Source: Halobacteria archaeon (GTDB lineage Archaea; Halobacteriota; Methanoliparia; Methanoliparales; Methanoliparaceae). From it: a stretch of 13,819 bases of DNA. Position 1 is the stretch's first letter. Each line of letters opens with the position of its first letter. This document shows, in pieces, positions 182 to 13,463 of the stretch. The DNA lies in assembly GCA_013329575.1 (NCBI GenBank), contig DUJX01000098.1:1-13819 (forward strand), given 5' to 3'. Both the position numbers and the translations under genes were made by a program. Below the pieces are notes generated by a model, which saw nothing but the letters and a program-made list of their open reading frames with translations, made no database searches and was not told the DNA's origin.

Positions 182-1138
182 ATGGATAACAATGATCTTG
201 TTAAAAAGGTTTTATCCGGAGATAAAAAAACAATATCAAAGGTTATAACACTTGTAGACAATAGAGATCCGACTGTAAATAATATTATCGATAAGTTATA
301 CCCATATACGGGCCGAAGCCAGGTTGTTGGAATTACTGGACCTCTCGGTGTTGGTAAATCTACTCTGATAGGTCAGATGATAAAAAGCTGGAGTAAAAAA
401 GGCAAAAAAGTGGCAGTAATTGCAATAGATCCGACAAGTCCTTTTCATGGAGGGGCAATTTTAGGCGACCGAATAAGGATGCAGGATTGTTTTTTAGATG
501 AGAATATCTTTATCAGAAGTATAGGTACGAGAGGGGCTTACGGTGGATTGTCTAAATCCACAGATGAGATAACAAAGGTGTTTGATGCTGCAGGATACGA
601 CATAGTCTTGATCGAGACGGTAGGTGCCGGTCAGGTGGAAGTAGATATAGCAAAACTCGCTCATACCACCATTGTTGTAGTAGTACCTGGATTGGGCGAT
701 GTAATACAGACGATAAAGGCAGGAATGTTCGAAATTCCAGATATTGTGGTGGTTAACAAATCAGATTTGGCTGGTGCTGATCAGCTTGTAATGGATTTAG
801 AGACGGTGCTTAATTTGTCGCATAAAAAATGGAAACCGCCCGTACTTAAGACTGTATCTTTAAAAAACGAAGGGATAGACGATCTTATACGTGTAATAGA
901 AAAACATTGGAATTATCAAAAAGAGAAAGGACTTTTATACGAGAAAGAGACAAACAAAATCAGGGAAGAATTATTGAATCTTATAACAGACGATTTAAAA
1001 ACAAAAATATTAAACGAGATTAACAAAAGTGGATTGTTAGATTTATACACTAAAAAACTCATATCAAAGGAGATCACACCGTATATTGCCAAAGACGAGA
1101 TAATAAAAGAGATATTAAAAAATAAAAATATCTCATAA
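182..1138 (+). CDS. meaB: MeaB/ArgK-type GTPase, acyl-CoA mutase chaperone
   Basis: This is a SIMIBI-class G protein that in known systems guards B12-dependent acyl-CoA mutases, gating adenosylcobalamin loading and rescue of inactivated enzyme at the cost of GTP. At 318 residues it has normal family length. Visible motifs are the P-loop GPLGVGKS at 53-60, the IDPTSP and GGAILGDRIRM segments at about 82-100, the switch-like ETVGAGQ at 145-151, and the base-specificity motif NKSD at 192-195. The usual ETVGVGQSE stretch reads ETVGAGQVE, a mild divergence. The ATG at 182 has no Shine-Dalgarno site and a TATA-like box stands upstream. It lies head-to-tail against the mutase small-subunit gene, with 21 bases between the two stop codons, so it is transcribed separately from the mutase it presumably serves. 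Family assignment is secure; the partner is inferred from adjacency. Confidence 0.9.
   Translation: MDNNDLVKKVLSGDKKTISKVITLVDNRDPTVNNIIDKLYPYTGRSQVVGITGPLGVGKSTLIGQMIKSWSKKGKKVAVIAIDPTSPFHGGAILGDRIRMQDCFLDENIFIRSIGTRGAYGGLSKSTDEITKVFDAAGYDIVLIETVGAGQVEVDIAKLAHTTIVVVVPGLGDVIQTIKAGMFEIPDIVVVNKSDLAGADQLVMDLETVLNLSHKKWKPPVLKTVSLKNEGIDDLIRVIEKHWNYQKEKGLLYEKETNKIREELLNLITDDLKTKILNEINKSGLLDLYTKKLISKEITPYIAKDEIIKEILKNKNIS
1101..1134 (-). terminator. Candidate terminator of the ten-gene operon
   Basis: Just past the stop codon of the mutase small subunit, read on the minus strand, an 8-bp inverted repeat (1134-1127 with 1116-1109) encloses a T-rich 10-base loop and is followed by TTTTATTA. It lies inside the 3' end of the convergent MeaB-type gene. 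The layout resembles a hairpin-plus-T-tract terminator, and T-rich stretches alone can terminate archaeal transcription. Not tested. Confidence 0.35.
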
Positions 1139-1159: not shown

Positions 1160-1564
1160 TTAAGATGTGTCGCCAACTATCGATTTGATCCCTTCAACGA
1201 TTTCTTCTGAAGTTGCTCCAGGTTTAAAAAGTAATTCAAATCCTATATTTTTCAAATCAGTCTCCTCTTCTGGTGGGAAGATTCCGCCGAGTACAAATTT
1301 TATCCTGTCTTTCACACCTTTTTCATCGGCAATCCTCATCAGCTCTCTTCCAAGTTGTAAAGCACCACCGCACATCGAAGTTATCCCTATCACATCGGCA
1401 TCTTCTTGAATAGCAGATTCTATGATCTCCTCAGGCCGATTATTACCTATATAGACGACCTCCATCCCAGCATCCCTAAGGATACTTGCCACAGTAATAA
1501 TCCCTCTAGAATGCGTCTCAAGACTATAAGCAGATAATAATACTTTAATTTTCCTTTCACTCAT
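1160..1564 (-). CDS. B12-binding small subunit of an acyl-CoA mutase (divergent)
   Basis: A 134-residue B12-binding domain of the type that forms the small subunit of two-subunit acyl-CoA mutases. The fold is recognisable from the N-terminal beta strand, HSRG, the DAGMEVVYIG strand/turn at about 32-41, DVIGITS at about 57-63 and the GG at about 93-94. The cobalt-ligating His is H18. The usual D-x-H-x-x-G motif instead reads E16-T-H18-S-R-G21, the Lys four residues before that Asp in methylmalonyl-CoA mutase is Ala12, and the usual S-x-L reads T-S-M. The ATG at 1564 is preceded by a strong AGGAGGA site at 1571-1577 overlapping the stop codon of the large-subunit gene, so the two are likely translationally coupled. 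It is the last gene of the operon. Family sure; substrate unknown. Confidence 0.88.
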   Translation of the reverse strand: MSERKIKVLLSAYSLETHSRGIITVASILRDAGMEVVYIGNNRPEEIIESAIQEDADVIGITSMCGGALQLGRELMRIADEKGVKDRIKFVLGGIFPPEEETDLKNIGFELLFKPGATSEEIVEGIKSIVGDTS

Positions 1565-1575
1565 TTATAATCCTC

Positions 1576-3336
1576 CTATAAAACTAATGGTTGTCTCCAC
1601 AAACCAAATGCTTCTGTGAACTTTCTTCTCATCTCCCCCTCCGTAGCACCGGCTCTTGCAGCCTCAAGCGTCTTATAAGTCACATTTTCACCAGATTTGC
1701 ATGCATCTACGATTCCACCAAGGCAGCTCTCTACTTTATCGTTATCTCTCTCAGCCCTCCATTTTTTCAACTTCTTGATCTGGTTCTCTCTTATCTCCTC
1801 GGATACTTCTTGACATCTGATAGGAGGCTCTTTTACATCCGGCTGTCTGAAATAATTATATCCTACAACCTTGATCGTACCATCGTCGATCTTTCTACGC
1901 TCTTCCTGTATGAATCTCGAAATTTTGTTATGAATCCAGCCGCTTTCAATGATCTTGACATAACCACCTTGTTTTTCTATCTCTTCGATCTCGCCTAGTA
2001 TCTTCTCCTCCATAATATCTGTTAGGTTCTCTATATAGAACGATCCTGCCATGGGATCCACAACTTGTGTAACACCTGTCTCTACATTGATAATCTGCTG
2101 AGTTCTCAATGATAATAGCGAATCTTCTTCTAACGGTACGGAATAAGCCTCAGTATATGCATCTACATGCAAAGATTGGCAACCGCCCAAAATAGCTGCT
2201 AGAGCATGATATGCAGCCCTTATAACGTTATTATAAGGCTCTACACGTTGCAAAGATATACCGGATGTCTGAACGTGGCACCGCTCTAACTGAGATCGCG
2301 GTTGTTTTGAATCAAACCTATATTTCATTATTTTGTACCATAGCCTTCTTGCGGCGCGTAATCTTGCTACTTCCTCAAAAAAGTCGTTTCCCACACTCCA
2401 AAAGAATGCTATCCTCTCTGCCGTCCAATCTGGGTCGTATCCTCTCTTTTGCATCTCCTCGATGATTGATATACCGTTAGCAAAAGCAACGGCCATCTCT
2501 GTAATGCTTGATGTTCCATATTCTCGCAGATTGTATCCGTTTAAGGTAATATAATTCCATCTGGGTACTTCGTTTCTTATAAACTCTATGTTATCACATT
2601 GTACTCTGAAAGCATCAGCAGGAGGTATATACTCCGGTGCCCGTCTGACGATGCATTCCATCGTTACATCATTCTGCACACTTCCTGGCAGTTTTTTCCA
2701 ATCGTACCCTCTTTTTTCTGCCATTACTAAAAACATAGGAAATATAATAGCTGTGTTTCTGGGATAATGAGTTACGATAGACGAGCTGATCTCATCGATC
2801 GGAATACCATCATAAATAGTCTCCATATCCTGAACACAATCAACTGGCACACCAACCGTTCCTACTTGACCTATCGCCTCAGGCTCATCCGAATCGAACA
2901 TTTGAACCGTGGGTAGATCCAATGCCAGATTAGTTCCGGTTGAACCGGACTCTAAAAGAAATTTCATCCTTTTATTGACATTTTCAGGAGATCCTGCTCC
3001 GGATAGTTGCCGCATGGTGAATACCCTTCCTCTGTACATATTTGGATAACAGCCACGTGTGAACGGTTCATCTCCAGAAAATCCTATATCTTCCATATAA
3101 TCCAAATTTGCTGCATCTAAAGGAGTGTATAACAATTTTCTGGGAATTCCAGATCCTAACATTGTTTGTGGTACCACTTCCCATGTTTTTCTATCTTTTT
3201 CGCTTACATTTGTATTTTTCCACTCTTCAAAATTTTTTTTGGTCTTTTTTATTGTCTCTTGGTTATACAAGGGGGTTTCCCCTTTTTCTTTAATTTTTTC
3301 CTCTAAAATCTCTTTTGTCGTCTTTTTTTTATCCAT
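1576..3336 (-). CDS. Large catalytic subunit of a B12-dependent acyl-CoA mutase, atypical active site
   Basis: At 586 residues this is the TIM-barrel, CoA-binding subunit of a two-subunit methylmalonyl-CoA-mutase-family enzyme, which rearranges acyl-CoA carbon skeletons by adenosylcobalamin radical chemistry. Family landmarks are PFTRG at 91-95, MYRGR at 100-104, the D-L-P-T segment at 140-143, VQND at 220-223, FFW/GNDFFEEVARLRAAR at about 311-330 and the RAERD segment near 527-531. Hand alignment to Propionibacterium methylmalonyl-CoA mutase numbering gives L111 for Tyr89, N136 for Ser114, Q221 for Gln197, R231 for Arg207 and N269 for His244. The carboxylate-binding Arg is thus kept, while Tyr and the catalytically important His are lost. 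ATG 3336 follows a GAGGGGAG site. The usual name would be methylmalonyl-CoA mutase, but these residues argue for another, possibly bulkier, dicarboxylyl-CoA substrate. Confidence 0.88.
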   Translation of the reverse strand: MDKKKTTKEILEEKIKEKGETPLYNQETIKKTKKNFEEWKNTNVSEKDRKTWEVVPQTMLGSGIPRKLLYTPLDAANLDYMEDIGFSGDEPFTRGCYPNMYRGRVFTMRQLSGAGSPENVNKRMKFLLESGSTGTNLALDLPTVQMFDSDEPEAIGQVGTVGVPVDCVQDMETIYDGIPIDEISSSIVTHYPRNTAIIFPMFLVMAEKRGYDWKKLPGSVQNDVTMECIVRRAPEYIPPADAFRVQCDNIEFIRNEVPRWNYITLNGYNLREYGTSSITEMAVAFANGISIIEEMQKRGYDPDWTAERIAFFWSVGNDFFEEVARLRAARRLWYKIMKYRFDSKQPRSQLERCHVQTSGISLQRVEPYNNVIRAAYHALAAILGGCQSLHVDAYTEAYSVPLEEDSLLSLRTQQIINVETGVTQVVDPMAGSFYIENLTDIMEEKILGEIEEIEKQGGYVKIIESGWIHNKISRFIQEERRKIDDGTIKVVGYNYFRQPDVKEPPIRCQEVSEEIRENQIKKLKKWRAERDNDKVESCLGGIVDACKSGENVTYKTLEAARAGATEGEMRRKFTEAFGLWRQPLVL

Positions 3337-3355: not shown

Positions 3356-4156
3356 TTAATTATTTTTACAAAATTTATTCTTTGCTATCAAAGCGGCTCC
3401 CAACGCACCGGTTATAAGCGGCTCGGGCGGAACATGGATAATATGTCCTATCTTCTCCTCTAAAGATTTTACAACACCAATATTCCTAGCAACACCACCG
3501 GTCATGACTACATCGTCCTCGATACCAGTACTTCTAGTTAATGCGCTCACTTTTGTGGCAATAGCATCGTGTATTCCAGCAATTACATCTTCTTTGCTTA
3601 TTTCAGACGCAATCATAGAAATTACCTCTGTTTCAGCAAAAACGGTACAGGTACTGCTAATACTAACTTTATTTTTAGATTTTAATGATAGCGGCCCAAG
3701 GTCATTGACATTTACTCCTATAACATTGCTCATTACTTCTAAAAACCTGCCACTGCCTGCAGCACATTTATCGTTCATTGCGAAAGAGGATACTCTGCCG
3801 TTTGCGTCCAATTTTATCGCCTTTGAGTCCTGCCCACCGATGTCTATCACCGTATGGCAGTTCGGAAATATTTTATGGACGCCTTTGGCATGACAGGTGA
3901 TCTCTGTCACTTTTTCGTCCGCAAAAAATGCTGATGCAACATTCCTGCCATAACCGGTCGCAACAATATACTTGATCTGATCTTCTTTGATTTTGTGTTC
4001 ATCTAAAATAGATCCGTATAGATCAGAGATTGTCTTTCTAATCTCAAATCCACTTTTAGAAAATTTATAGCCGATAATATCTTCTTTTTCATTAATTAAT
4101 ATTATCTTACTCATAGAAGATCCGATATCCAACCCACAAAAGTACATTTTATCCAT
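3356..4156 (-). CDS. 2-hydroxyacyl-CoA dehydratase activase (HgdC/BadF/BcrA family)
   Basis: A 266-residue ATPase of the ASKHA fold, the length of single-chain activators such as HgdC. As a homodimer bridged by one [4Fe-4S] cluster, it injects a single low-potential electron into the dehydratase at the expense of ATP. Nucleotide-binding motifs are DIGSS at 10-14, DIGGQDSK at 105-112 and TGGVARN near 219-225. The two expected cluster cysteines are C131 in the NDKCAAGSGRFLE segment and C170 in SSTCTVFAETE, spaced exactly as in HgdC (39 residues). The gene lies 17 bases after the dehydratase subunit and 19 bases before the mutase large subunit, in the same operon. Only one activase gene is present, unlike benzoyl-CoA reductase with its two activase-like subunits, which favours dehydratase-type chemistry. 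Confidence 0.92.
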   Translation of the reverse strand: MDKMYFCGLDIGSSMSKIILINEKEDIIGYKFSKSGFEIRKTISDLYGSILDEHKIKEDQIKYIVATGYGRNVASAFFADEKVTEITCHAKGVHKIFPNCHTVIDIGGQDSKAIKLDANGRVSSFAMNDKCAAGSGRFLEVMSNVIGVNVNDLGPLSLKSKNKVSISSTCTVFAETEVISMIASEISKEDVIAGIHDAIATKVSALTRSTGIEDDVVMTGGVARNIGVVKSLEEKIGHIIHVPPEPLITGALGAALIAKNKFCKNN

Positions 4157-4173
4157 TTTATATCTTAATGATA

Positions 4174-5415
4174 CTATCTCAACGACTCTATAAACGCATC
4201 AAATTGAGTCATCATTCTTTCAGGTGGCATCGCTCTCGAATCACATTGTGGTGCCTCAACGATCAGGCTAGGTATCCCTAATTCTTCATATAACGCCTTT
4301 TTGATAGGTCTCATAACACCACTAACTATCCTGCATCCAGTATTTTCGAATAAAATCGCTCCATCTAAGTCGGCATCTTTTGCCTTCTTAATCAAAGCAT
4401 CTAACATTAGATCATGCTCGACATTACAAAAAGTACTTATTCTTCTTGCCAAACTTTCGAAAGGTTTATTAGAATCATGTAAAACAGCTGAACAGTGCGC
4501 ATAAGGGTTTAACGGAAAAGTAGCTCCCAGCTCCTCTATATAGTTATACAAAGAAAGAGTATGCCAAGGCATGATTCCATGAGTCATCAATCTAAACTTC
4601 TCCTCCGGCACAACCCCCTCTTTTCTTCTCACTCTTTCTTTGATTAACTCATAACAGTTTTTAACATAATCCAATCCATATTTGCTTCCATGAACAAAAA
4701 ATCCTACAAAAGGATAGTTTGCTAAGTCTACCTGGCTTCCGGGGGTGGGTTTGGACATAAATAACTTAAATATTTCTGTAAAATATTTAGATGTCTCTTC
4801 TGAAATCTTCATTACCGATTTAAACTTATCATCATCCAATTCTTCCCCCGTTACTCCTTCCAAAAAAGTAACAAAATCTTTGAGCACTTGGACGGTATAT
4901 TCGAGAACATCTTTATCCATCCACTCCGTCATCTTAGTTATGTCATCGAAGGATCCGATATCTTCTTTCCTTATATAAGGAAAAGCCAGACTGTATCTTC
5001 TGGCATCATACATTCTTGCATGAACCTCTGCCATATCTCTATGACCGAAACATATAGAGTGATGATCTACCGTAAAATCAGGTTTGGGCATTAATGGCTT
5101 GGTTGCCAATTCTGGTTTATCTATTGCCCCGACTGAGCATTTAAAATAATCACAAAGAAAAGGACCGTAACCCATACTGTAATAATCGTCTATCATCATT
5201 GGGCTATCGCCTCTAGATGCACAATATGCCGAATATTGTTCAGGGAAGATATTTACTATATCAAAGACATAATTCAGTTCTGCAGGATGGTAACCATAAT
5301 ACCAACCACATGGTCTTTTATTTGCTAAAAGCTCATTTTGTCTCCCGAGATGGCTCTTATATGTCGGACCAAAGAGTTTCCCAAACCCCAAAAGATTAAG
5401 TTTCTGCCTCTGCAT
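4174..5415 (-). CDS. 2-hydroxyacyl-CoA dehydratase / benzoyl-CoA reductase-like subunit, larger
   Basis: About 413 residues, matching the HgdB/FldB/HadB/BcrB-type superfamily, which carries [4Fe-4S] clusters and removes water from (R)-2-hydroxyacyl-CoA by a ketyl-radical route, or reduces aromatic rings in the benzoyl-CoA reductase branch. Visible signatures are RPCGWYYGYHPAEL near 34-47, a conserved-looking CDYFKC at 88-93, and a C-terminal domain with FENTGCRIVSG and the closing EAPQCDSR. Cysteines at 36, 65, 88, 93 and 122 include the likely cluster ligands. I chose the ATG at 5415. A TTG three codons earlier is possible but lies in a GTTGAT element that looks like the ribosome-binding site. 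It sits between the partner subunit (26 bases upstream) and the activase. Substrate is not readable from sequence alone. Confidence 0.85.
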   Translation of the reverse strand: MQRQKLNLLGFGKLFGPTYKSHLGRQNELLANKRPCGWYYGYHPAELNYVFDIVNIFPEQYSAYCASRGDSPMMIDDYYSMGYGPFLCDYFKCSVGAIDKPELATKPLMPKPDFTVDHHSICFGHRDMAEVHARMYDARRYSLAFPYIRKEDIGSFDDITKMTEWMDKDVLEYTVQVLKDFVTFLEGVTGEELDDDKFKSVMKISEETSKYFTEIFKLFMSKPTPGSQVDLANYPFVGFFVHGSKYGLDYVKNCYELIKERVRRKEGVVPEEKFRLMTHGIMPWHTLSLYNYIEELGATFPLNPYAHCSAVLHDSNKPFESLARRISTFCNVEHDLMLDALIKKAKDADLDGAILFENTGCRIVSGVMRPIKKALYEELGIPSLIVEAPQCDSRAMPPERMMTQFDAFIESLR

Positions 5416-5419
5416 TTTT

Positions 5420-5426
5420 ATCAACC
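5420..5426 (-). promoter_or_regulatory. Putative TTGAT-type ribosome-binding site
   Basis: The bases before ATG 5415 read GTTGATAAAAATG, a one-mismatch version of the GTGATAAAA(A/G)TG element found before two other genes of the operon. It is partly complementary to the archaeal 16S tail (AUCACCUCC). It supports ATG 5415 over TTG 5424, which would lie within the element itself. Confidence 0.35.
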
Positions 5427-5441
5427 ATTTATGATTATAAA

Positions 5442-6563
5442 TTAAGATAAAGATTCTATGAAAGCCTCAATTCTGGTTTTGTGTTGTTCTACAGCGAGAG
5501 GAAAATCTATTTCTAAATAAAGTACAGGCTTTACCTTTGTTAACTCTTTTCTTAACTCTATCTGCGAGAATGCACATAATTCACAACCTTTATCGCCTAA
5601 GATAATTATACCGTCAGGATTTAAAGTTTTTAATCGTTCATTTATATACGATAATCGCTCATCAATGGCAAAACCGCCTTGCCTACTACAGGTGCCACAA
5701 GTGGGTTTTGATGCCAGATATCCCTCTGCAATTGCTTTAACAGGATCTTTAGCAGTTTCATCTATGGTAAAATCAAAATTCCTTGATCCTGTACAGAGAT
5801 CGTCAAAGATAATCGTAGAACCGCAACCTTCTATCATCTCAAAGACCTCAGGGTCATAAATAGGAACTCCTGTAACGTAAAGTCTTGGCTTGCCAGGTAA
5901 TTCGTTTTCATTGGATAATTTATCTATATATCTCTCTATCTTATCACTGAATTCTTCTTTAAGCATAGAATAACTGGCAAGGTTTACTTTTAAAACATCG
6001 GAGCCAGAAACCTTTGGCGGTATATAAAACCTATACTTGTAGAGTTCTTTGAGTAAAGACCTGTATCTGTTATAGATTTCGATTGAATTTCTCAAATCTT
6101 CATCTGTTATATCAACAGAATAATGATCTTCTAAAGACTTCTTAAACTTGTTCAATATTTTTACAAAGAATCTTTTAGATATTTCGTTTACTGCGAAAGG
6201 AAACTGCAACAGGTATGAATATTCTGCTTTTACATTCTTCTTCCATATCGAATACATCAATTCGTTTGTATCGTCGGATGTTAAGAATACAAAACCATCT
6301 AAAAAGTCATAACCGCCAGTTAATCCTTCTTCAAAGGTTCTTTTGCTATAATAACACAACCAATTTGGGATATAGGAAAAAGCCTGTGTTACATTGGTAG
6401 TTTTTCCAAATAAACGAACAGGAACAAGCCCAGCAGCATGAATAATCTCTTCTGGTATATAACTACAGAAAGTCCCTATTATCTTCTTATTATTACGTAT
6501 ATACTCTTCTATCTTCTTCGAATTAAGAAATATATCGTAAAATTCTTCAATATCAGTCCTCAT
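5442..6563 (-). CDS. 2-hydroxyacyl-CoA dehydratase / benzoyl-CoA reductase-like subunit, smaller
   Basis: About 373 residues, the size of FldC/HadC/HgdB-type subunits and slightly shorter than BcrC. The family hallmark near the N terminus is present: C33 followed by P-E-E-I-I-H-A-A-G at about 37-45, then W-L-C70 in the next segment. Further cysteines at 247, 257, 289, 292, 327 and 330 are seen, with GDKGCELCAFSQIE near 323-336 corresponding to the C-terminal cluster and CoA-binding domain. It is expected to pair with the product of the next gene and receive an electron from the activase. The ATG at 6563 is preferred; a TTG at 6566 is nearer in spacing to the GGAAGG site that overlaps the stop codon of the enoyl-CoA hydratase gene, so the start is uncertain by one codon. 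Family clear, substrate unknown. Confidence 0.85.
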   Translation of the reverse strand: MRTDIEEFYDIFLNSKKIEEYIRNNKKIIGTFCSYIPEEIIHAAGLVPVRLFGKTTNVTQAFSYIPNWLCYYSKRTFEEGLTGGYDFLDGFVFLTSDDTNELMYSIWKKNVKAEYSYLLQFPFAVNEISKRFFVKILNKFKKSLEDHYSVDITDEDLRNSIEIYNRYRSLLKELYKYRFYIPPKVSGSDVLKVNLASYSMLKEEFSDKIERYIDKLSNENELPGKPRLYVTGVPIYDPEVFEMIEGCGSTIIFDDLCTGSRNFDFTIDETAKDPVKAIAEGYLASKPTCGTCSRQGGFAIDERLSYINERLKTLNPDGIIILGDKGCELCAFSQIELRKELTKVKPVLYLEIDFPLAVEQHKTRIEAFIESLS

Positions 6564-6572
6564 CAAATTCTT

Positions 6573-7352
6573 TTACCTTCCTTTGAAATTGGCTTTTCTC
6601 TTCTCTAAAAATGCAGATATTCCTTCTTTAGCATCATCAGTCATTATAGCCAGCAAAAATTCGTCCGTTTCAAATGACAAGCCCTCCGTCAAAGGCATCT
6701 CAACCCCTTTGTTCACAGAATCCAGTACACAACCAACCGCTATCGGTGGTTTAGACGCCAGTTTTTCGACTAATGCCATAGATTCTTCATCCAATTTATC
6801 TGCCGGTACAACCTTATCGACCAGCCCGACCGTCCTTGCCTCGTCTGCATCGACCATATCCCCAGTCAGATCCATCAATTTTGCCATTCCTTTTCCTACA
6901 AGCCTTGGTAGCCGCTGTGTTCCGCCCCACCCCGGTATGATACCAAGATTTATCTCAGGTTGCCCAAACTTTGCCTTATCAGATGCTATCCGTATATCAC
7001 ACGCCATCGAGATCTCGCATCCTCCACCTAAAGCAAGACCGTTTATAGCTGCTATGAACGGCTTTTTCATCTGTTCAATCTTTGTTAGAACACTTTTTCC
7101 TTTATCGATTACTCTTTTCACGTCTATGTAATTTTTGTCTTTAAACATAGTTATATCGGCTCCAGCAGCAAATGCTCTGCCAGATCCCGTAATTATTGCT
7201 ACTTTTATATCGTCAGATTTTTCGATATCATCCGTTACCTCGTCAAGCTCTGAAATCATCGTCTCGTTTATGGCATTCAGGACATCTGGCCTATTTAATA
7301 TGATTTTTGCAATAGGCGGTTTCTTCTCGTATATTATTGTATCATATGTCAT
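6573..7352 (-). CDS. Enoyl-CoA hydratase (crotonase family)
   Basis: A 259-residue crotonase-fold protein that adds water across the double bond of a 2-enoyl-CoA to give a 3-hydroxyacyl-CoA. Residues for the oxyanion hole are in AFAAGADI (60-67) and NGLALGGGCE (104-113). Both catalytic glutamates of true hydratases are present: E113 after GGGC, and E133 in FGQPEINLG, followed by the IIPGWGGTQRL signature. This marks it as a hydratase rather than an isomerase, decarboxylase or ring-cleaving family member. I start at ATG 7352. A GTG at 7361 overlaps the stop of the upstream dehydrogenase gene (GTGA), but GTGAT there looks like the ribosome-binding site. In the operon it lies between the 3-hydroxyacyl-CoA dehydrogenase and the dehydratase subunits, so its substrate is probably the enoyl-CoA the dehydratase makes. 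Confidence 0.93.
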   Translation of the reverse strand: MTYDTIIYEKKPPIAKIILNRPDVLNAINETMISELDEVTDDIEKSDDIKVAIITGSGRAFAAGADITMFKDKNYIDVKRVIDKGKSVLTKIEQMKKPFIAAINGLALGGGCEISMACDIRIASDKAKFGQPEINLGIIPGWGGTQRLPRLVGKGMAKLMDLTGDMVDADEARTVGLVDKVVPADKLDEESMALVEKLASKPPIAVGCVLDSVNKGVEMPLTEGLSFETDEFLLAIMTDDAKEGISAFLEKRKANFKGR

Positions 7353-7356
7353 TTTT

Positions 7357-7361
7357 ATCAC
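7357..7361 (-). promoter_or_regulatory. Putative GTGAT ribosome-binding site overlapping a stop codon
   Basis: GTGATAAAAATG precedes the enoyl-CoA hydratase. GTGAT is complementary to AUCAC of the archaeal 16S 3' tail and contains the TGA stop of the preceding dehydrogenase gene, suggesting coupled translation. It supports ATG 7352 over GTG 7361. Confidence 0.4.
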
Positions 7362-8215
7362 TTTGAATAATCATAGAATCCTTTATTAGATTTTCTTCCA
7401 AGCCAACCGACTTCTTTCATTCTTTTTAGTAATGGTGCGGGTTTGTATCGTTCCCAGCCGGTCTCTCGATAAATGGACTCCAGCATATCATGAACTATAT
7501 CTATACCGATCAAATCTATTAATTGGAATGGCCCCATCGGCCAGTTGAATGATAATCTGGTCATCTTATCGATATCTTCTATGGTTGATAACCCGGTCTC
7601 ATATAACTTTACTGCCTCATTAACAAAAAGTGTCATTATCCTATTTGATATAAATCCAGGAGAATCTTTTACAACGACAGATTCTTTACCTAGGGAATCT
7701 ACAAATTTTAAAGAAGTATTCAACGTATCTTCAGATGTTACTATAGATTTTATAACCTCAACACCTCTCATCAAAGGTACAGGATTCATAAAATGGATCC
7801 CTATAACCTTATCTTGCCTTCTGGTTACGGAACCTAATAGAGATATCGGTATTGTCGAGGTATTACTGGCAAAGATTGTGTGTTCAGGACATATTTTATC
7901 CAAGTTTGAAAAAATATCTTTTTTAATATCTATTATTTCAGAAGCCGCCTCTATAACCAGATCGACATCTTTTGCTCCTTTTTCTCTGCTTGTAGTTGTT
8001 TTTATCCGTCCAAGCGTCTCATCCATATCTTTTTGTGCAATTTTTCCCTTCTCAACAAACTTAGATAGACTTTTTTTTATGTTTTCCAATCCTTTTTTAA
8101 GAATCTCATCGGTAATATCAACAATATTTGTTGCATAACCGGACTGTGCGCAGACCTGAGCTATACCACTACCCATTACTCCAGCACCTATAACACAAAC
8201 TTTTTTAATATCCAC
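7358..8215 (-). CDS. 3-hydroxyacyl-CoA (3-hydroxybutyryl-CoA) dehydrogenase
   Basis: A 285-residue single-function NAD-dependent dehydrogenase of the (S)-3-hydroxyacyl-CoA type, oxidising the hydroxyl made by the hydratase to a 3-oxoacyl-CoA, or the reverse in biosynthesis. The Rossmann motif GAGVMG is at 10-15, with an acidic residue (D33) at the end of the second strand, favouring NAD over NADP. Catalytic residues are in place: S120 in NTST, H141 in GIHFMNP, E153 in RGVEVI and N191 in DSPGFISNR. The C-terminal domain has the usual P-M-G-P-F-x-L-I-D-L-I-G segment near 226-237. The start is taken as GTG at 8215, giving the typical beginning just before the Rossmann fold; an upstream GTG at 8224 is more likely part of the ribosome-binding site. 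A second, unrelated dehydrogenase precedes it in the operon. Confidence 0.93.
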   Translation of the reverse strand: MDIKKVCVIGAGVMGSGIAQVCAQSGYATNIVDITDEILKKGLENIKKSLSKFVEKGKIAQKDMDETLGRIKTTTSREKGAKDVDLVIEAASEIIDIKKDIFSNLDKICPEHTIFASNTSTIPISLLGSVTRRQDKVIGIHFMNPVPLMRGVEVIKSIVTSEDTLNTSLKFVDSLGKESVVVKDSPGFISNRIMTLFVNEAVKLYETGLSTIEDIDKMTRLSFNWPMGPFQLIDLIGIDIVHDMLESIYRETGWERYKPAPLLKRMKEVGWLGRKSNKGFYDYSK

Positions 8216-8219
8216 TTTT

Positions 8220-8224
8220 ATCAC
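8220..8224 (-). promoter_or_regulatory. Putative GTGAT ribosome-binding site
   Basis: GTGATAAAAGTG precedes the 3-hydroxyacyl-CoA dehydrogenase. It is identical, apart from the start codon, to the element before the enoyl-CoA hydratase gene. The GTGAT core fits the archaeal 16S tail. This argues that translation starts at GTG 8215 rather than GTG 8224. Confidence 0.4.
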
Positions 8225-8262: not shown

Positions 8263-9036
8263 CTAAAACGTGAAAAGATCGATACCACCACCAACTACGA
8301 TTGCATCACCTGTAACATAACTTGCATCATCCGATGCTAAGAAAGCAAGCACGTTGCTCAGCTCTTTTGGATCTCCCGGTCTACGCATAGCCACTCTTTT
8401 TATGATCCGCTCTCTGAAAGGCTCAGCAACATCATAAAAACTGCTATCTTCTCTTCCTTTTCCACCAAAAACTCCTAAAACCAATGCATTGCATGTTATA
8501 TTATATCTCGCTCCTTCTAACGCAATAGTCTTGGTCAGACCTATAAGTCCTGCCTTAGTCGTAGCATAACTGCATTGCCCACTACCACCCATAGTTCCGG
8601 TTACCGATGATATATTGATTATTCTGCCCCAGTTGTTATTTTTCATATCTGGAATTACTGATTTGATGCAATTGAATGCCCCAGTAAGATTCACACGTAA
8701 ATCTTGATCCCAATCCTCTTTTGATGTCTTTTCTATTAAAACAGCCCGTACTATACCAGAAGCAGCATTATTTACTAAGATATCAACCGGACCCAACTCT
8801 TTTTTGATCTTTTCTATCCCTTGATTGACTTCATCCTCATCAGATACATCCATCTTGATTGCCAAAGCCTTTCTACCTAACGCCCGTATTTCGTTAGCCA
8901 CGGATTCTGCTCTATCGATATTTTTATTGCCTGTTACAGCAACATCAGCACCATTTTGAGCCAATGTTAAGGCATGTATCCGACCTAGTCCTCCAGAACC
9001 ACCGGTAACTAACGCCACTTTTTTTTCTAAAGACAT
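8263..9036 (-). CDS. Short-chain dehydrogenase/reductase (FabG/3-oxoacyl-CoA reductase-like)
   Basis: A 257-residue classical SDR. The cofactor loop TGGSGGLG is at 11-18, the NNAAS turn at 89-93, and the full catalytic tetrad is present as N116, S144, Y157 and K161 (Y-A-T-T-K). The C-terminal G-G-G-I-D segment is typical of FabG-like enzymes. In this setting it probably interconverts a 3-oxoacyl-CoA and a 3-hydroxyacyl-CoA. It may handle the opposite stereoisomer, a different chain or a different redox cofactor from the neighbouring 3-hydroxyacyl-CoA dehydrogenase, or act on another hydroxyl in the same pathway; BbsC/BbsD of anaerobic toluene breakdown are an SDR precedent next to a thiolase-DUF35 pair. 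ATG 9036 is preceded by a strong GAGGAGAG site. Gaps of 47 bases on either side are the largest in the operon. Confidence 0.9.
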   Translation of the reverse strand: MSLEKKVALVTGGSGGLGRIHALTLAQNGADVAVTGNKNIDRAESVANEIRALGRKALAIKMDVSDEDEVNQGIEKIKKELGPVDILVNNAASGIVRAVLIEKTSKEDWDQDLRVNLTGAFNCIKSVIPDMKNNNWGRIINISSVTGTMGGSGQCSYATTKAGLIGLTKTIALEGARYNITCNALVLGVFGGKGREDSSFYDVAEPFRERIIKRVAMRRPGDPKELSNVLAFLASDDASYVTGDAIVVGGGIDLFTF

Positions 9037-9083: not shown

Positions 9084-9512
9084 TTAAATTGGTTTAAACA
9101 ATGGCATAACTCTTTCCCCTGCCGAAAATTTATCGCCCGGTATCACAAGATGGTCTAGCCGAACTCTCATTCCGATTATATCTTGAGACGCGTTACCATT
9201 CTTCAACGATGCCTTATCCTTGTCATAGTCCAACCGGCCCATTATAGTCGGTCCTTCATCAAGCCGTACTAAACAAACGATATAATCCGGCTCAAAACTT
9301 TCCGGTGGGACATAAACCCGTGCAAAAGTCAAGATTTCTCCCTTACCGCTAAGTTCTGTCTTTTCCAGATCAGTAGAACCACACCATTGGCATGTTGGCA
9401 ACGGAGGACATGTTATTTGACCACAATTTTTGCATCTTAACCCTAACAATTTGTTATTTTTTAACCCCTCATGATAATCGTTCGAGGTTAACACATAGAA
9501 CTCTTTTGACAT
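9084..9512 (-). CDS. DUF35 zinc-ribbon/OB-fold protein, thiolase partner
   Basis: A 142-residue protein of the DUF35 family, with a rubredoxin-like zinc ribbon and a C-terminal OB fold. The four probable zinc ligands are C27, C30, C41 and C44 (C-x-x-C-G...C-x-x-C-G). The OB part begins with the KGEILTFARVYVPP segment near 57-70. Family members bind next to thiolase-superfamily enzymes and shuttle or accommodate the CoA arm. In methanogens such a protein joins thiolase to HMG-CoA synthase, and BbsA does a similar job for benzoylsuccinyl-CoA thiolase. Its gene follows the thiolase gene by 5 bases, with its AGGAGG site (9521-9526) inside the last thiolase codons, so a stoichiometric complex is likely. 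No HMG-CoA synthase gene is present here. Confidence 0.88.
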   Translation of the reverse strand: MSKEFYVLTSNDYHEGLKNNKLLGLRCKNCGQITCPPLPTCQWCGSTDLEKTELSGKGEILTFARVYVPPESFEPDYIVCLVRLDEGPTIMGRLDYDKDKASLKNGNASQDIIGMRVRLDHLVIPGDKFSAGERVMPLFKPI

Positions 9513-9517
9513 ATCTG

Positions 9518-10705
9518 TTACCTCCTAGACCTTCCGAGAATCGTATGCGCTATGGTATTAAACCCGCCACCTAAGGTATCTGTCATACCGATCTCTGGAA
9601 CAGGATTTACTTGATTTCCGTTCGGTGCCTTTCCTTTAAGCTGTTCTACTATCGCATGAACCTGCGCCACTCCTGTCGCTCCGATAGGATGACCTTTACC
9701 CATGAGACCACCGCTTGAATTGATAACCGGTCTTCCTCCTATGTCAGTCTGGCCAGATTCTACAGCATCTGCACCTTTACCCCAATCAAAGAATCCCATA
9801 GCCTCGCTTGCTACAATCTCTGCTGAAGTAAAACAGTCATGAATCTCTACAACGTCAACGTCTTTTGGCCCAAGACCGGCCTGTTTAAAAGCGCTTCTTG
9901 CCGAAAAAACACGCGACGCAGGTTTTGTAATATCTGCTTGTGCTCCCATATGGCCCAAAGATCCTTGCCCGACACCCAAAACATATATTGGCTCATCCGT
10001 ATATCTTCTCGCTATGTCAGCAGATGCCAGAACAACCGCAGCGCCTCCATCAGAGAAAGGACAACAGTCCATCAATGTCAAAGGATCACAGACGACTGTA
10101 GAGTTTAGTACATCCTCTACTTTCAGGTTGCCCATCTTTTGATAAAACTGGGCGTGTGGGTTCAAAGCACCATGTTTATGATTCTTCATACTCACGTGTG
10201 CCATCTTCTCTCTAAGTTTATCCAGTGGTATATCATATATCTTCGAATAACGTCTCGCAACCATGGCAAAGACTCCTGGAAAGGTTATACCGGTAGTCCC
10301 TTCGTACTTGCAATCGTTCGCCATTGCAAACGTTCTCGTGGAAAAAGGTGTCCCCATTATCATCGCCCGTTCCATACCGCCTACTAAAACGATATCGTAA
10401 AAACCAGAAGCGACCCACATAAAAGCATCCCTGAAAGCAACAGTCCCTGAACAACATGCTCCCTCAAACCTCGTCGCAGGAATGTTACCAAGATGTAATG
10501 CCCCAACGAGATGACCACCGATGTTTATCTGTCCCTCCTCAAAACCGCCCAATACGTTACCGACAAATAACGCCTCTATATCTTTCTGTGAGACATTAGC
10601 GTCTTCCATAGCTGCTAAAGATGCATCGCAGAATAATTCCGTATTAGATTTTCCTAATTTTCCAAACTTTGTCTGGGCTGACCCAATTATTGCAACATCT
10701 CTCAC
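9518..10705 (-). CDS. Archaeal/SCP2-type thiolase (acetyl-CoA acyltransferase-like)
   Basis: A 395-residue thiolase of the archaeal, SCP2-like branch that cleaves a 3-oxoacyl-CoA with CoA or condenses two acyl-CoAs. The probable nucleophile is C84 in the E-G-A-C-C-S-G-T segment. The His of the second motif is H289 in EIHDCFTSAE, the branch-typical replacement of NEAF, and H339 lies in GGLMGKGHPIGATG. The C-terminal GGGFNT is also typical, whereas a classical thiolase has a terminal CxG cysteine motif. It starts with GTG at 10705, preceded seven bases upstream by AGGGG, and a TATA-like box is about 40 bases upstream. It is the first gene of the ten-gene block. The reaction it serves depends on the unknown substrate; the DUF35 partner and SDR neighbour recall BbsAB, but that is analogy. 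Confidence 0.9.
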   Translation of the reverse strand: MRDVAIIGSAQTKFGKLGKSNTELFCDASLAAMEDANVSQKDIEALFVGNVLGGFEEGQINIGGHLVGALHLGNIPATRFEGACCSGTVAFRDAFMWVASGFYDIVLVGGMERAMIMGTPFSTRTFAMANDCKYEGTTGITFPGVFAMVARRYSKIYDIPLDKLREKMAHVSMKNHKHGALNPHAQFYQKMGNLKVEDVLNSTVVCDPLTLMDCCPFSDGGAAVVLASADIARRYTDEPIYVLGVGQGSLGHMGAQADITKPASRVFSARSAFKQAGLGPKDVDVVEIHDCFTSAEIVASEAMGFFDWGKGADAVESGQTDIGGRPVINSSGGLMGKGHPIGATGVAQVHAIVEQLKGKAPNGNQVNPVPEIGMTDTLGGGFNTIAHTILGRSRR

Positions 10706-10712
10706 TTAATTA

Positions 10713-10760
10713 CCCCTAATATCATTTGAGATAATTAGTAATATAAATAGATATTGTTTA
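10713..10760 (-). promoter_or_regulatory. Candidate promoter of the ten-gene operon
   Basis: On the minus strand a TTTATAT element (10747-10741) lies about 40 bases before the GTG start of the thiolase gene, behind a run of 13 A's (10775-10763). A start about 26 bases downstream of the TATA centre falls near 10718, giving a leader of roughly a dozen bases that carries AGGGG at 10713-10717. Inferred from spacing only. Confidence 0.4.
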
Positions 10761-10829
10761 TATTTTTTTTTTTTTATTTTTAATAATTAGATTAAGATTA
10801 AAATTTAGAATAAATAATAAAATTGGTTT

Positions 10830-11645
10830 TTAACTGAGATTTGGAATATATTTTTTAATCAAAAAAGCGAAGATAAATGCTATAGACAGTATGAGTACTA
10901 TAGTTGCACCAGGGATTAAATCAAGTGTATATGAGACCAACAAACCGATTATCACTAAAATAGCGCTTATTATAGATGACGATACCATCAAATTTCGAAG
11001 ATTATCATGAATGAACTGTCTACTTATCAGGATAGGCATGGTTAATAGAGCCAATACGAGAATAATCCCGGCAACTCTTATCAAAACAATAATACTCAAT
11101 GCAACCATAGATAAAAGTAATAGATACAATGCGTTTGTTGGAACTCCTACCACAGTTGAGAATTCTTCATCAAAAGAGATAGATAAGAACTCTTTATAAA
11201 AAAGATAGACTATGGTTATGATGATCACGTCCAAGATAGACATTAAGATCAGATCAGAATGAGTAACTGTAAGAATGCTCCCAAACAAGTAACTGAATAG
11301 GTCTGGAGCGTATCCTTGTTTTAAACTTATAAAAATAAGCCCTAACGCCATACCAACGCTCCAAATTACTCCAATTATAGCATCCTCATTTATTTTGGTC
11401 TTTCTGTTTATGATGCCCACACTGACCGCGGATAGAACAGCAAAAGGGATCGCGGTTATCAATGGATTAATCCCAATCAAGTAGCCCAACCCGACGCCAC
11501 CAAAAGACGCATGGGATATTCCTCCGCTTATAAATACAATTTTTTTTACGACGATGTATGTACCAATAATCCCGCAGACTACGCTTGCCAGGATCGCAGC
11601 AATAATAGCGTTTCTCATAAACTCGTATTGAAATAGTTCAATCAC
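10830..11645 (-). CDS. Metal ABC transporter permease (ZnuB family)
   Basis: A 271-residue integral membrane protein of the ZnuB/MntB/TroC family, forming the channel of a zinc or manganese importer. About eight hydrophobic segments can be read, from residue 13 to near the C terminus. The conserved HASFGGVGLGY stretch is at about 45-55, and the family's cytoplasmic FDEEFSTVVGVP coupling region at about 157-168. Translation is taken from GTG 11645, supported by a very good GGTGATC ribosome-binding site five bases upstream. It is the last of three co-directional transporter genes, with 15 bases separating it from the ATPase gene. It is separated from the thiolase gene by about 124 AT-rich bases carrying the next promoter. 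Confidence 0.92.
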   Translation of the reverse strand: MIELFQYEFMRNAIIAAILASVVCGIIGTYIVVKKIVFISGGISHASFGGVGLGYLIGINPLITAIPFAVLSAVSVGIINRKTKINEDAIIGVIWSVGMALGLIFISLKQGYAPDLFSYLFGSILTVTHSDLILMSILDVIIITIVYLFYKEFLSISFDEEFSTVVGVPTNALYLLLLSMVALSIIVLIRVAGIILVLALLTMPILISRQFIHDNLRNLMVSSSIISAILVIIGLLVSYTLDLIPGATIVLILSIAFIFAFLIKKYIPNLS

Positions 11646-11650
11646 AGTTA

Positions 11651-11657
11651 GATCACC
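11651..11657 (-). promoter_or_regulatory. GGTGATC ribosome-binding site of the permease gene
   Basis: GGTGATC, five bases before GTG 11645, is fully complementary to GAUCACC of the archaeal 16S 3' end. It fixes the start of the permease on GTG and supports reading the shorter GTGAT elements elsewhere as ribosome-binding sites. Confidence 0.6.
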
Positions 11658-11660
11658 ATT

Positions 11661-12425
11661 TTATTCGTGTTCTCCTAAAAATCTATGCGGGATATCATGG
11701 AGTATCAATTCTACAGGCATCCGGTACATCTCTTCGATCTTATGTAACCCTTTCTCTTTCGGGCCATGATAATATATCTTTTGATTTAGACAGGCAATCT
11801 TATCGATGTATGGATAAATGACTCCAATGTCATGGGTTACTATAATTATAGTCATCGTCTCTTTAATCTTTAAAAGAAGTTCATAAAAAGAGTTTTGTGC
11901 CTTCATATCTATACTTACCGTCGGCTCGTCGAGTATAAGTAATTCCGGTCTTCTTGCCAGGGCTCTGGCCAATAATACTCGCTGCAGTTCTCCGCCCGAG
12001 AGGTTGCCTATTTGTCGGTCTCTATAATCAAACATACCGACACTCTTTAATGCATTGGTTACAATATTTTTATCCTCATCAGAATACCTTTTAAAGACTC
12101 TATTATATCGTGCAGTAAGAACCACATCAAAGACATTTATAGGGAAATCTCGGTCAAAAAGAGAATATTGAGGCAAATATCCGATTAAACTTCTTCCTTT
12201 TTCAGGATTTTTTCCAAAAACTTTGATGGTGCCTTTATCCGGCTTTAATAAACCGAGTATTATCTTTAAAAGAGTGGTCTTTCCTCCACCGTTCGGTCCT
12301 ATTATCGCAAGAAAATCATTCTTTTTGACGGATAAGTTTACGTTGTCCAGGACAATATTATCATCGAATGATGCCTGCACATCTTTTAATTCTAATACCA
12401 TCTCTGTCTCATTTGTATGATCCAT
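11661..12425 (-). CDS. Metal ABC transporter ATP-binding protein (ZnuC family)
   Basis: A 254-residue ABC ATPase that powers uptake through the permease encoded next. All nucleotide-binding motifs are intact: Walker A GPNGGGKT at 43-50, Q-loop Q86, signature LSGGE at 142-146, Walker B LLILDE at 162-167 and the switch His H198. The C-terminal tail has the IPHRFLGEHE segment, with several histidines, which is common in zinc/manganese-type members. The ATG at 12425 lies two bases after the stop of the binding-protein gene and has no strong ribosome-binding site, so translational coupling is likely. It is the middle gene of a three-gene import operon. Confidence 0.93.
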   Translation of the reverse strand: MDHTNETEMVLELKDVQASFDDNIVLDNVNLSVKKNDFLAIIGPNGGGKTTLLKIILGLLKPDKGTIKVFGKNPEKGRSLIGYLPQYSLFDRDFPINVFDVVLTARYNRVFKRYSDEDKNIVTNALKSVGMFDYRDRQIGNLSGGELQRVLLARALARRPELLILDEPTVSIDMKAQNSFYELLLKIKETMTIIIVTHDIGVIYPYIDKIACLNQKIYYHGPKEKGLHKIEEMYRMPVELILHDIPHRFLGEHE

Positions 12426-12427
12426 AT

Positions 12428-13300
12428 CTACTCGAACTCTAATATAAGCATATCAGATATTTTTGTCATGTTTTCTATGTAATTCTTAGGAAGTGGATCG
12501 ATGTAAACGATCTCACCACCGATCTCACTAGCTATAGCCTCTGCATATCTTTTAGGAAACTGAGGTTCTAAAAATACGTAAGATAAATTTAGCTCTTTTG
12601 CAAGGTCGACACATCGTCGGATATCCTGTGGTGTAGGCTCTTTTCCCTCAGACTCGACTGATATCTGGACGAGATCGTACTCTTTGGCAAGATACCCGAA
12701 AGATGGATGGTATGTAAGAAAAGCTTTGTTATCGTACCGGCTAAACTTGTCTTTTAGATCTTTATCTAGATCTGACAATTTTTCAACATATTTATTCTTA
12801 TTTTGCTCATAAAAACTCGTATTATCCGGATCTATCTTAACGATCTCATCATAAAAATTTTCCGTCATCGTTATTGCATTCAGGGGCGATAACCAGATAT
12901 GAGGGTCGTTATCTATAACTTTTATATCCTTCGATCCATCCACAATAATCATATTGGGATTTAGATCTTCTAACTTATCCATCCACGTCTTTTCAAAATC
13001 TATACCGGATCCAACCTTGAAATAAATTTTTGCGTTGCTAATCGATCTCAATTGGTCGGGCGATGGCTCGTATGTATGAGGATCGGCACCTGGCGGCGTC
13101 ATAACAATTATACTTGCTCGGTCACCCATTATGTTCTTTACAAAATCTGCCTGCGGCAGTATTGTTACACCCACTACAATCCTGGTATCGTCCTCAACAT
13201 CTTCTTCGTGCATGAAAAATATTGCTAACGCTGCACAGACGATTAAGATTGCCATAATGCTCATCAATAATATCTTTTTATTCATATCGGTCATAGCCAT
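12428..13300 (-). CDS. Metal ABC transporter substrate-binding protein (ZnuA family), probably zinc
   Basis: A 290-residue cluster A-I (ZnuA/PsaA) solute-binding protein that captures a divalent metal outside the membrane. Residues 10-30 are strongly hydrophobic and probably form an uncleaved anchor or signal; C22 sits inside this segment but lacks a convincing lipobox. The metal ligands can be placed at H75 (DPHTYEPS), H134 (DPHIWLSP), H198 (YHPSFGYLAKEY) and D268 (YIDPL). A His at the third position is typical of zinc-type proteins, where manganese-type ones usually have Glu. The His-rich loop found in many bacterial ZnuA proteins is absent. Possible starts are ATG 13300, 13294 and 13285. 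TATA spacing would suit a leaderless start at 13294, and no Shine-Dalgarno site is seen. First gene of the transport operon. Confidence 0.9.
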   Translation of the reverse strand: MAMTDMNKKILLMSIMAILIVCAALAIFFMHEEDVEDDTRIVVGVTILPQADFVKNIMGDRASIIVMTPPGADPHTYEPSPDQLRSISNAKIYFKVGSGIDFEKTWMDKLEDLNPNMIIVDGSKDIKVIDNDPHIWLSPLNAITMTENFYDEIVKIDPDNTSFYEQNKNKYVEKLSDLDKDLKDKFSRYDNKAFLTYHPSFGYLAKEYDLVQISVESEGKEPTPQDIRRCVDLAKELNLSYVFLEPQFPKRYAEAIASEIGGEIVYIDPLPKNYIENMTKISDMLILEFE

Positions 13301-13314
13301 ATTTTATTTATTTT

Positions 13315-13326
13315 TTGATATATTGT
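13315..13326 (-). promoter_or_regulatory. Candidate TATA box for the metal transporter operon
   Basis: On the minus strand CAATATATC (13325-13317) is centred near 13321. A start 26-27 bases downstream falls at about 13294, which is itself an in-frame ATG of the binding-protein gene, suggesting a leaderless message. Inferred from sequence and spacing. Confidence 0.4.
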
Positions 13327-13395
13327 TTTATTCTTAGATATTTACTCATCGATCGATCCGATCAAACAACCGATTCGATACCAAATCCGATATAG

Positions 13396-13414
13396 GTATA
13401 ATGCTCGATTATAC
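13396..13414. promoter_or_regulatory. Inverted repeat, possible metalloregulator operator
   Basis: GTATAAT (13396-13402) and ATTATAC (13408-13414) form a perfect 7-bp inverted repeat around a 5-base centre, a 19-bp element in the only gap before the metal transporter genes. Its size fits a dimeric DtxR/MntR-type repressor site, which would suit an archaeal metal-uptake operon. It lies about 80 bases upstream of the proposed TATA box, rather far for simple repression, so the role is uncertain. Confidence 0.3.
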
Positions 13415-13426
13415 TAACGTTTAGAC

Positions 13427-13433
13427 AAAAAAA
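13427..13433 (-). terminator. Oligo-T terminator candidate after phosphopantothenate synthetase
   Basis: Read on the minus strand, seven consecutive T's occur about 30 bases after the stop codon of the partial synthetase gene. A T-run without a strong hairpin is the usual archaeal intrinsic terminator. This would separate that gene from the transporter operon. Confidence 0.4.
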
Positions 13434-13463
13434 CCTTATCTTAAACTAAACCATATCTTAATC

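Follow-up and report, generated by a model that had tools for sequence, protein, structure and literature searches.

The 13,819-nucleotide contig DUJX01000098.1 (GenBank assembly GCA_013329575.1), hereafter the window, was found to carry an operon that includes the genes for the large subunit and the small, B12-binding subunit of an acyl-CoA mutase, here designated mutL and mutS. By sequence, the source is a Candidatus Methanoliparum-like archaeon, one of the methanogens that feed on oil; MutL is 93% identical to its counterpart in Ca. Methanoliparum thermophilum NM1a and 80% identical to that of Ca. Methanolliviera, and the genome (G000, with the window as contig C14) amounts to 1.24 Mb at 85% completeness. 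Ten consecutive genes on the minus strand, with intergenic gaps of -4 to 47 bases, run from 10705 to 1160. They encode an SCP2-type thiolase (9518..10705; 58% identical to protein 101191 of Desulfotomaculum geothermicum), its DUF35-type OB-fold/Zn-ribbon partner (9084..9512; 48% to D. geothermicum 101190), a short-chain dehydrogenase/reductase (SDR) family oxidoreductase (8263..9036), a 3-hydroxyacyl-CoA dehydrogenase of the HAD family (7358..8224; PRK05808, 346.6 bits, below the cut-off of 408), an enoyl-CoA hydratase (6573..7361; PRK05809, 312.8 bits, below the cut-off of 394), a HadC/BzdN-like HGD-D subunit (5442..6566), a HadB/BzdO-like HGD-D subunit (4174..5424), an activator ATPase of the 2-hydroxyacyl-CoA dehydratase/benzoyl-CoA reductase type (3356..4156), MutL (1576..3336; 586 aa; PF01642 MM_CoA_mutase, 527.7 bits, without a B12 domain) and MutS (1160..1564; 134 aa; TIGR00640, PF02310). 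Convergent with mutS is a gene for a MeaB-type GTPase chaperone (182..1138, plus strand; TIGR00750, PF03308).

The three genes at 3356-6566 encode what is expected of a 2-hydroxyacyl-CoA dehydratase, namely two HGD-D subunits with cysteine ligands and an activator. Cys 68, 91, 125 and 364 of the HadB/BzdO-like subunit are kept in 14/14 aligned sequences, as are Cys 71 and 328 of the HadC/BzdN-like subunit, Cys 290 being kept in 12/14. The best Protein Data Bank (PDB) matches are HadB for one HGD-D subunit, BzdN for the other and HadI (4eht, 246.8 bits) for the activator, with MbdQ next (234.5 bits). The operon gene order is retained in Ca. M. thermophilum (L003), and in Methanolliviera (L006) the operon lies in two separate blocks without the SDR gene. 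Among 392 sampled genomes of the phylum, the mutase occurs at 80% identity or more in five genomes of the window's family, and the next best matches are at most 45% identical; other members of the family may lack it. Repeat, tRNA and Rfam scans, and a promoter scan of 10600-10850, gave nothing relevant. In oil archaea this operon was earlier read as a possible benzoyl-CoA reductase (BCR) with a methylmalonyl-CoA mutase (PMC6703427).

MutL was aligned with the methylmalonyl-CoA mutase (MCM) of Propionibacterium (1REQ), human MCM and the 2-hydroxyisobutyryl-CoA (2-HIB-CoA) mutase (HCM) of Aquincola tertiaricarbonis (4R3U). The alignment bears out the rewired active site described in the initial annotation: L111, N136 and N269 stand at the positions of Tyr89, Ser114 and His244, Q221 (Gln197) and R231 (Arg207) are retained, the SMTMNGAV segment reads SIVTHYPRNTA with two extra residues (Y191-P192), and one additional residue (A233) follows R231. 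Further markers are A138 and the THYPRN stretch at 189-194. In the best 120 of 7021 matches, N269, R231 and the pair H190 and P192 were each present in 120/120 and N136 in 119/120, position 111 being Leu in 104 and Ile in 16. As the substitutions are nearly fixed among near relatives, they are not sequencing noise. In an AlphaFold2 model of MutL (mean pLDDT 85.3), N136 falls inside strand 134-139 and Q221 is the last residue of strand 218-221; the THYP segment and the NGYN motif come after strands 184-188 and 260-266, respectively. L111 and R231 are in none of these strands. If MCM is a guide, the catalytic face would be made up of the strand ends.

The window mutase belongs to an Arg-bearing group, here termed R-type, which has as its sister a Gly-bearing group termed RcmA-type. 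In quick trees with SH-aLRT support only, from which the partial sequences L040 (431 aa) and L041 (344 aa) were left out, the R-type (15 rows) and the RcmA-type (5 rows) formed one branch with a support of 99. Forced clades of the R-type with MCM, with Aquincola HCM and with a probable IaaG were rejected (p-AU 9.95e-79, 0.0007 and 7e-22, respectively). MCM shares with the window enzyme the fold, Gln197 and Arg207, but Tyr89, Ser114 and His244 are lost in the latter, and identification as an MCM was dismissed on the loss of Tyr89 and His244 and on the rejected clade. The earlier warning that the name methylmalonyl-CoA mutase would mislead is well founded, since the enzyme falls outside the MCM clade; the named records among the relatives listed carry that label. 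HcmA of the Aquincola type was likewise discarded, as it has Ile90, Asp117 and Gln208 where MutL has L111, A138 and R231, keeps the His, lacks the insertion and did not join the R-type when tested as a clade.

The closest characterised enzymes are those of the RcmA type, not MCM, isobutyryl-CoA mutase (ICM) or Aquincola HCM. The initial annotation had compared the pocket with ICM and HCM but did not consider the RcmA type, in which Tyr and His are replaced and the insertion is present in the same way. Shared features are the separate large and small subunits, Ile or Leu for Tyr89, Asn for His244 (NGYN), the THxP two-residue insertion, the extra residue after 207 and the lack of Asp117; indeed N269, H190 and P192 were found in 120/120 sequences in each of two match sets, R-type near relatives and RcmA-type. 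The two groups differ in overall sequence (46-50% identity for the rows shown), in PST for PRN/PSN and in R-G for Q145-M146, as well as in the Gly at the Arg207 position. With four paralogous or partial sequences (L004_13, L005_06, L005_08 and L010_00) left out, residue 231 is Arg in 158/158 R-type rows and Gly in 120/120 RcmA-type rows, whereas position 145 is reversed, with Gln in 158/158 and Arg in 120/120. Between the groups, an arginine may accordingly have changed sides within the pocket, and for the Arg at the 207 equivalent the window mutase is best filed as a sister subclade of RcmA rather than RcmA itself. At the Tyr89 position, proteins P0175 (Kyrpidia tusciae; taken by its name as the purified RcmA) and P0159 (Bacillus (Robertmurraya) massiliosenegalensis) carry Ile; both also show the two-residue insertion, as THLPS, the NGYN motif and an additional residue behind 207. 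At position 117, P0175 has the Val that is reportedly the hallmark of RcmA (Weichler 2015). P0159 bears V92, E102, E137 and P163, the four large-subunit residues mutated in the purified B. massiliosenegalensis enzyme, and is very likely that enzyme, a 2-HIB-CoA mutase which serves as the scaffold of Lcm and for which a kcat of 0.29/s on 2-HIB-CoA is given (PMC11599936).

R-type mutases were found at 39 loci, all Arg-type, in archaeal, Chloroflexota, Desulfobacterota-type, Actinomycetota and Bacillota genomes. On acetone, D. geothermicum is reported to induce the mutase 101202/101201, two 'benzoyl-CoA reductase' subunits (101197/101198), BtrH (101194), an isomerase of the enoyl-CoA hydratase (ECH) type (101193), the thiolase 101191, the hypothetical protein 101190, an SDR (101189), a 3-hydroxy-3-methylglutaryl-CoA (HMG-CoA) lyase (101184) and a thiamine diphosphate (ThDP) enzyme (101183) (PMC8084838). 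Loci L020/L100 of Desulfoscipio geothermicus DSM 3669 match the acetone-induced cluster gene by gene and in the same order, assuming one small gene in the 1 kb that separates the dehydratase pair from the MaoC gene. The mutase (Ga0056068_101202/101201) is of the Arg type, 59% identical to the window enzyme in the large and 47% in the small subunit, and is the sole R-type mutase found in that genome, two other mutases being at 40-41%. A homologue in or just beside the cluster was found for 10/10 genes of the window operon, with the highest identities for the large mutase subunit and the thiolase. Both gene sets share the mutase, HadBC-like, activator, ECH, DUF35-thiolase and SDR families, and the D. 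geothermicum cluster has in addition the ThDP ketone enzyme, an HMG-CoA lyase-like gene, a MaoC gene and two activators. Within this cluster, L020:20803-21672 encodes a 289-aa C-terminal piece of a ThDP enzyme, 82% identical to part of the full-length D. geothermicum enzyme; it may be a fragment left by duplication or else a paralogue of small size.

For the mutase of D. biacutus, the 2-HIB-CoA reaction is reported with heterologously produced enzyme (PMC7888143), and this protein is given as 47% identical to the D. geothermicum mutase (PMC8084838). Genes of G765 and G727 were considered as the D. biacutus cluster and rejected, for although related, their arrangement is unlike the published one. 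The acetone-type ThDP enzyme was detected in 2/395 genomes of the phylum of L025, and both hold an RcmA-type mutase; three more genomes with the ThDP enzyme and this mutase lineage (G392, G486, G487) had been chosen for their mutase. Judged by co-occurrence, the ThDP enzyme and the R-type/RcmA-type lineage appear to go together.

Ten Arg-type loci hold an HCL-like ligase, 49-57% identical to Xaut_5019, the ligase within an HcmA-type operon, placed directly after the mutase pair (seven loci) or after a dehydratase-like pair (three loci). The one tested, from L030, scored 605.6 bits against 2-HIB-CoA synthetase (6hdw) and 246 against the phenylacetate-CoA ligase PaaK. The gene hcl is described in operons with hcmAB or rcmAB (PMC7176365). 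The subclade of the window, comprising 11 loci (L003-L013) on contigs of 3.3-21.7 kb, has a different setting from the 28 others, all counts being lower bounds: an activator was present at 10/11 loci (1/28 of the others), at least one dehydratase subunit at 8/11 (4/28), an acyl-CoA dehydrogenase of family F8 at 6/11 (0/28) and an HCL-family ligase at 0/11 (11/28, including that of L023 with only 29% identity to Xaut_5019). The weak HadB/HadC matches of L025 (28 and 23%) were left out of the four dehydratase loci, and L041, which has the residues of the window's subclade, was counted with the others; moving it gives 10/12 for the activator and 8/12 for the dehydratase. The window has a single activator gene; loci L007-L009 and L012, from Chloroflexota, have two each. 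No dehydratase or activator was found at five non-R-type archaeal mutase loci (L102-L106), which are few and span 6-20 kb. The RcmA-type locus of G765 holds dehydratase subunits and two activators, so the partnership of dehydratase and mutase is not private to the R-type.

From the retained Arg and the lost Tyr, the initial annotation had predicted a carboxylate-bearing, substituted malonyl- or succinyl-CoA as substrate. This class is probably wrong: the loss of Tyr and His and the insertion typify RcmA-type 2-HIB-CoA mutases, acetone induces an Arg-type enzyme in D. geothermicum (PMC8084838), and HCL-like ligases accompany Arg-type mutases. Furthermore, the mutase of G024 (locus L119), which follows a dehydrogenase with a GGG motif and is a probable, itself inferred, benzylmalonyl-CoA mutase IaaG, retains Tyr89, Arg207 and His244 and lacks the insertion, although it would act on aryl-substituted malonyl/succinyl-CoA and shares with MutL both Arg207 and Asn for Ser114. 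Given the acetone-induced relative, the ligases and these residues, Arg need not imply a carboxylate, though there is room for an extra charge on the substrate of the window's subclade. L119 (G024:C1:1995000-2013000) contains the GGG-motif dehydrogenase, the mutase pair, hydantoinase-like genes (recognised by sequence look), HAD and DUF35-thiolase genes, and is a probable iaa (indoleacetate) operon.

A carboxylate-type mutase for alkyl- or arylsuccinyl-CoA, which with the BCR-like genes would form part of a pathway for aromatic compounds or alkylsuccinates, is rather unlikely. It would account for the Arg207 kept throughout the R-type rows and for the BCR-like subunits and BbsA-like DUF35 protein adjoining the mutase, and a possible aromatic degradation was raised by Laso-Perez 2019. 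Against it stand the residues of the probable IaaG and its rejected clade with the R-type, the production of an R-type mutase with BCR-like subunits on acetone, and the reported failure to detect enzymes that act later in benzoyl-CoA breakdown, such as cyclic dienoyl-CoA hydratase, in two Methanoliparia metagenome-assembled genomes (PMC6703427). The F8 dehydrogenases argue in the same sense, having YEG in Chloroflexota and FEG in L006, with the GGG that marks IaaF (PMC8360864) in 0/6. A function as arylsuccinyl-type IaaGH was set aside on this motif, the residues and the tree, even if the Chloroflexota operon, with dehydrogenase, MaoC, thiolase, BCR-like subunits and two activators, would suit conversion of cinnamoyl-CoA to benzoyl-CoA.

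Quite unlikely, too, is a 2-hydroxyacyl-CoA mutase whose substrate, similar to citramalyl-CoA or 2-hydroxyglutaryl-CoA, has a carboxylate bound by Arg231. This would reconcile the RcmA lineage with the invariant Arg, and a gene of the HpcH/HpaI aldolase/citrate-lyase family (malyl/citramalyl-CoA-lyase-like) occurs near one R-type mutase, at L018; however, the HCL-like ligases and acetone context of Arg-type relatives point to uncharged substrates, and L018 itself holds such a ligase. A plain isobutyryl/n-butyryl-type mutase for non-hydroxylated acyl-CoA would fit the linked acyl-CoA dehydrogenases, but is very unlikely given that the genome has a separate ICM-like mutase (L102, G000:C133; Phe89, Gln207) and that the enzyme has the phylogenetic position and gene context of a 2-hydroxyacyl mutase. 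The neighbours of L102 are genes for an acyl-CoA dehydrogenase, a CoA transferase and MeaB.

The family, clade and residues of the mutase are established, as are the content and recurrence of its operon. It seems probable, on comparison of sequences and gene contexts, that mutLS (3336-1160) encodes an adenosylcobalamin-dependent 2-hydroxyacyl-CoA/3-hydroxyacyl-CoA mutase of the RcmA lineage, from an uncharacterised Arg-bearing subclade, which the operon uses as follows. We infer the substrate, the direction of the reaction, what the dehydratase does and all of the catalytic roles. The substrate would be a 2-hydroxy-2-methylacyl-CoA (2-HIB-CoA or a longer homologue), whose thioester group would shift to the adjacent methyl carbon in the radical reaction usual for such mutases and so yield a linear 3-hydroxyacyl-CoA. 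The thioester carbonyl would be hydrogen-bonded by Asn269 instead of His244, and Leu111 and the THxP insertion would widen and reshape the pocket. The 3-hydroxyacyl-CoA would be oxidised by the HAD or SDR enzyme of the operon, after which the DUF35-thiolase would release acetyl-CoA and an acyl-CoA. The HadBC-like enzyme and its activator would most likely connect the 2-hydroxyacyl-CoA with a 2-methyl-2-enoyl-CoA delivered by an acyl-CoA dehydrogenase.

Several observations weigh against this assignment of the mutase and its operon. No assay of an R-type enzyme was found in the literature, the functional link through D. geothermicum is proteomic, and with Arg231 invariant in one group and Gly in the other, substrate preferences of R-type and RcmA-type may differ. 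The archaeal dehydratase subunits resemble benzoyl-CoA reductases and HadBC to about the same degree and are only 24-31% identical to those of D. geothermicum (SDR 30%). The HAD homologue L020_05 is not listed among the acetone-induced proteins (PMC8084838). The Methanoliparia and four Chloroflexota genomes searched yielded no acetone-type ThDP enzyme and, for HCL, either PaaK-like paralogues (31-37%) or nothing, so that the source of the 2-hydroxyacyl-CoA in the window's subclade is a guess. LEG is the motif of isobutyryl-CoA dehydrogenase (PMC8360864), and YEG/FEG in its place speaks mildly against isobutyryl-CoA itself. An acetone route in Methanoliparum was considered and rejected, only a generic acetolactate-synthase-like ThDP enzyme (26-31%) being present in the five family genomes.

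Because neither the ThDP enzyme nor HCL was found, the dehydratase is the simplest maker or user of 2-hydroxyacyl-CoA in the window's subclade. Enzymes of this kind remove the hydroxyl at C2 and a proton at C3, and a tertiary hydroxyl is therefore chemically allowed. The dehydratase and mutase recur together without ligase or lyase in Chloroflexota, a pattern suggestive of a so far undescribed anaerobic pathway for acyl-CoAs with a 2-methyl branch. We propose tentatively that the window operon encodes such a pathway, in which a radical dehydratase run as a hydratase would be followed by the Arg-type mutase. An acyl-CoA dehydrogenase, whose gene lies close to that of the mutase in Chloroflexota and L006 and elsewhere in the Methanoliparum genome, would convert 2-methylacyl-CoA to 2-methylenoyl-CoA (methacrylyl-CoA type), the dehydratase in reverse would add OH at the tertiary carbon, the mutase would give the linear 3-hydroxyacyl-CoA, and dehydrogenase and DUF35-thiolase would yield acetyl-CoA units. 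The opposite direction, or ketone metabolism without the known ThDP enzyme, would also be compatible with these genes. A limited literature search joining 2-hydroxyacyl-CoA dehydratase with methacrylyl-CoA and 2-HIB-CoA returned no report of the dehydratase, which does not imply absence from print.

If this pathway exists, a pair of consecutive radical enzymes would stand in for the route of the valine type, which passes through methylmalonate semialdehyde. The alkane-degrading Methanoliparia would use it for branched compounds that arise during hydrocarbon oxidation, and it would recur in Chloroflexota with the dehydrogenase built in. Within a known kind of enzyme, the Arg-bearing R-type forms a new branch of wide distribution, and its gene setting may be a new pathway. 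A widespread anaerobic group labelled methylmalonyl-CoA mutase probably acts on branched hydroxyacyl-CoAs, which would change pathway predictions for oil archaea, bear on the induction of 'benzoyl-CoA reductase' subunits reported for acetone- and ketone-degrading sulfate reducers (PMC8084838, PMC7888143), and supply new scaffolds to those who engineer 2-hydroxyisobutyrate and lactyl-CoA mutases.

Upstream of the operon, positions 10830-13814 of the window hold a zinc-type ABC transporter (permease, ATPase and binding protein) and a partial archaeal phosphopantothenate/pantothenate synthetase gene. Last, Methanolliviera has two further, divergent mutase pairs (L005:4859-9053 and L004:12173-15327), in tandem and opposite to the mutase studied here, with Asn at His244, Glu at Gln197 and a rebuilt Arg207 region. 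Among the 120 relatives listed for them, which include Ca. Syntrophoarchaeum butanivorans, Syntrophoarchaeum GoM_oil, a Bathyarchaeote, a Helarchaeote and Desulfoferrobacter, 118 have the Asn, and one may guess that this clade, present in alkane-oxidising archaea among others, is tied to the step from alkyl-CoM to acyl-CoA.

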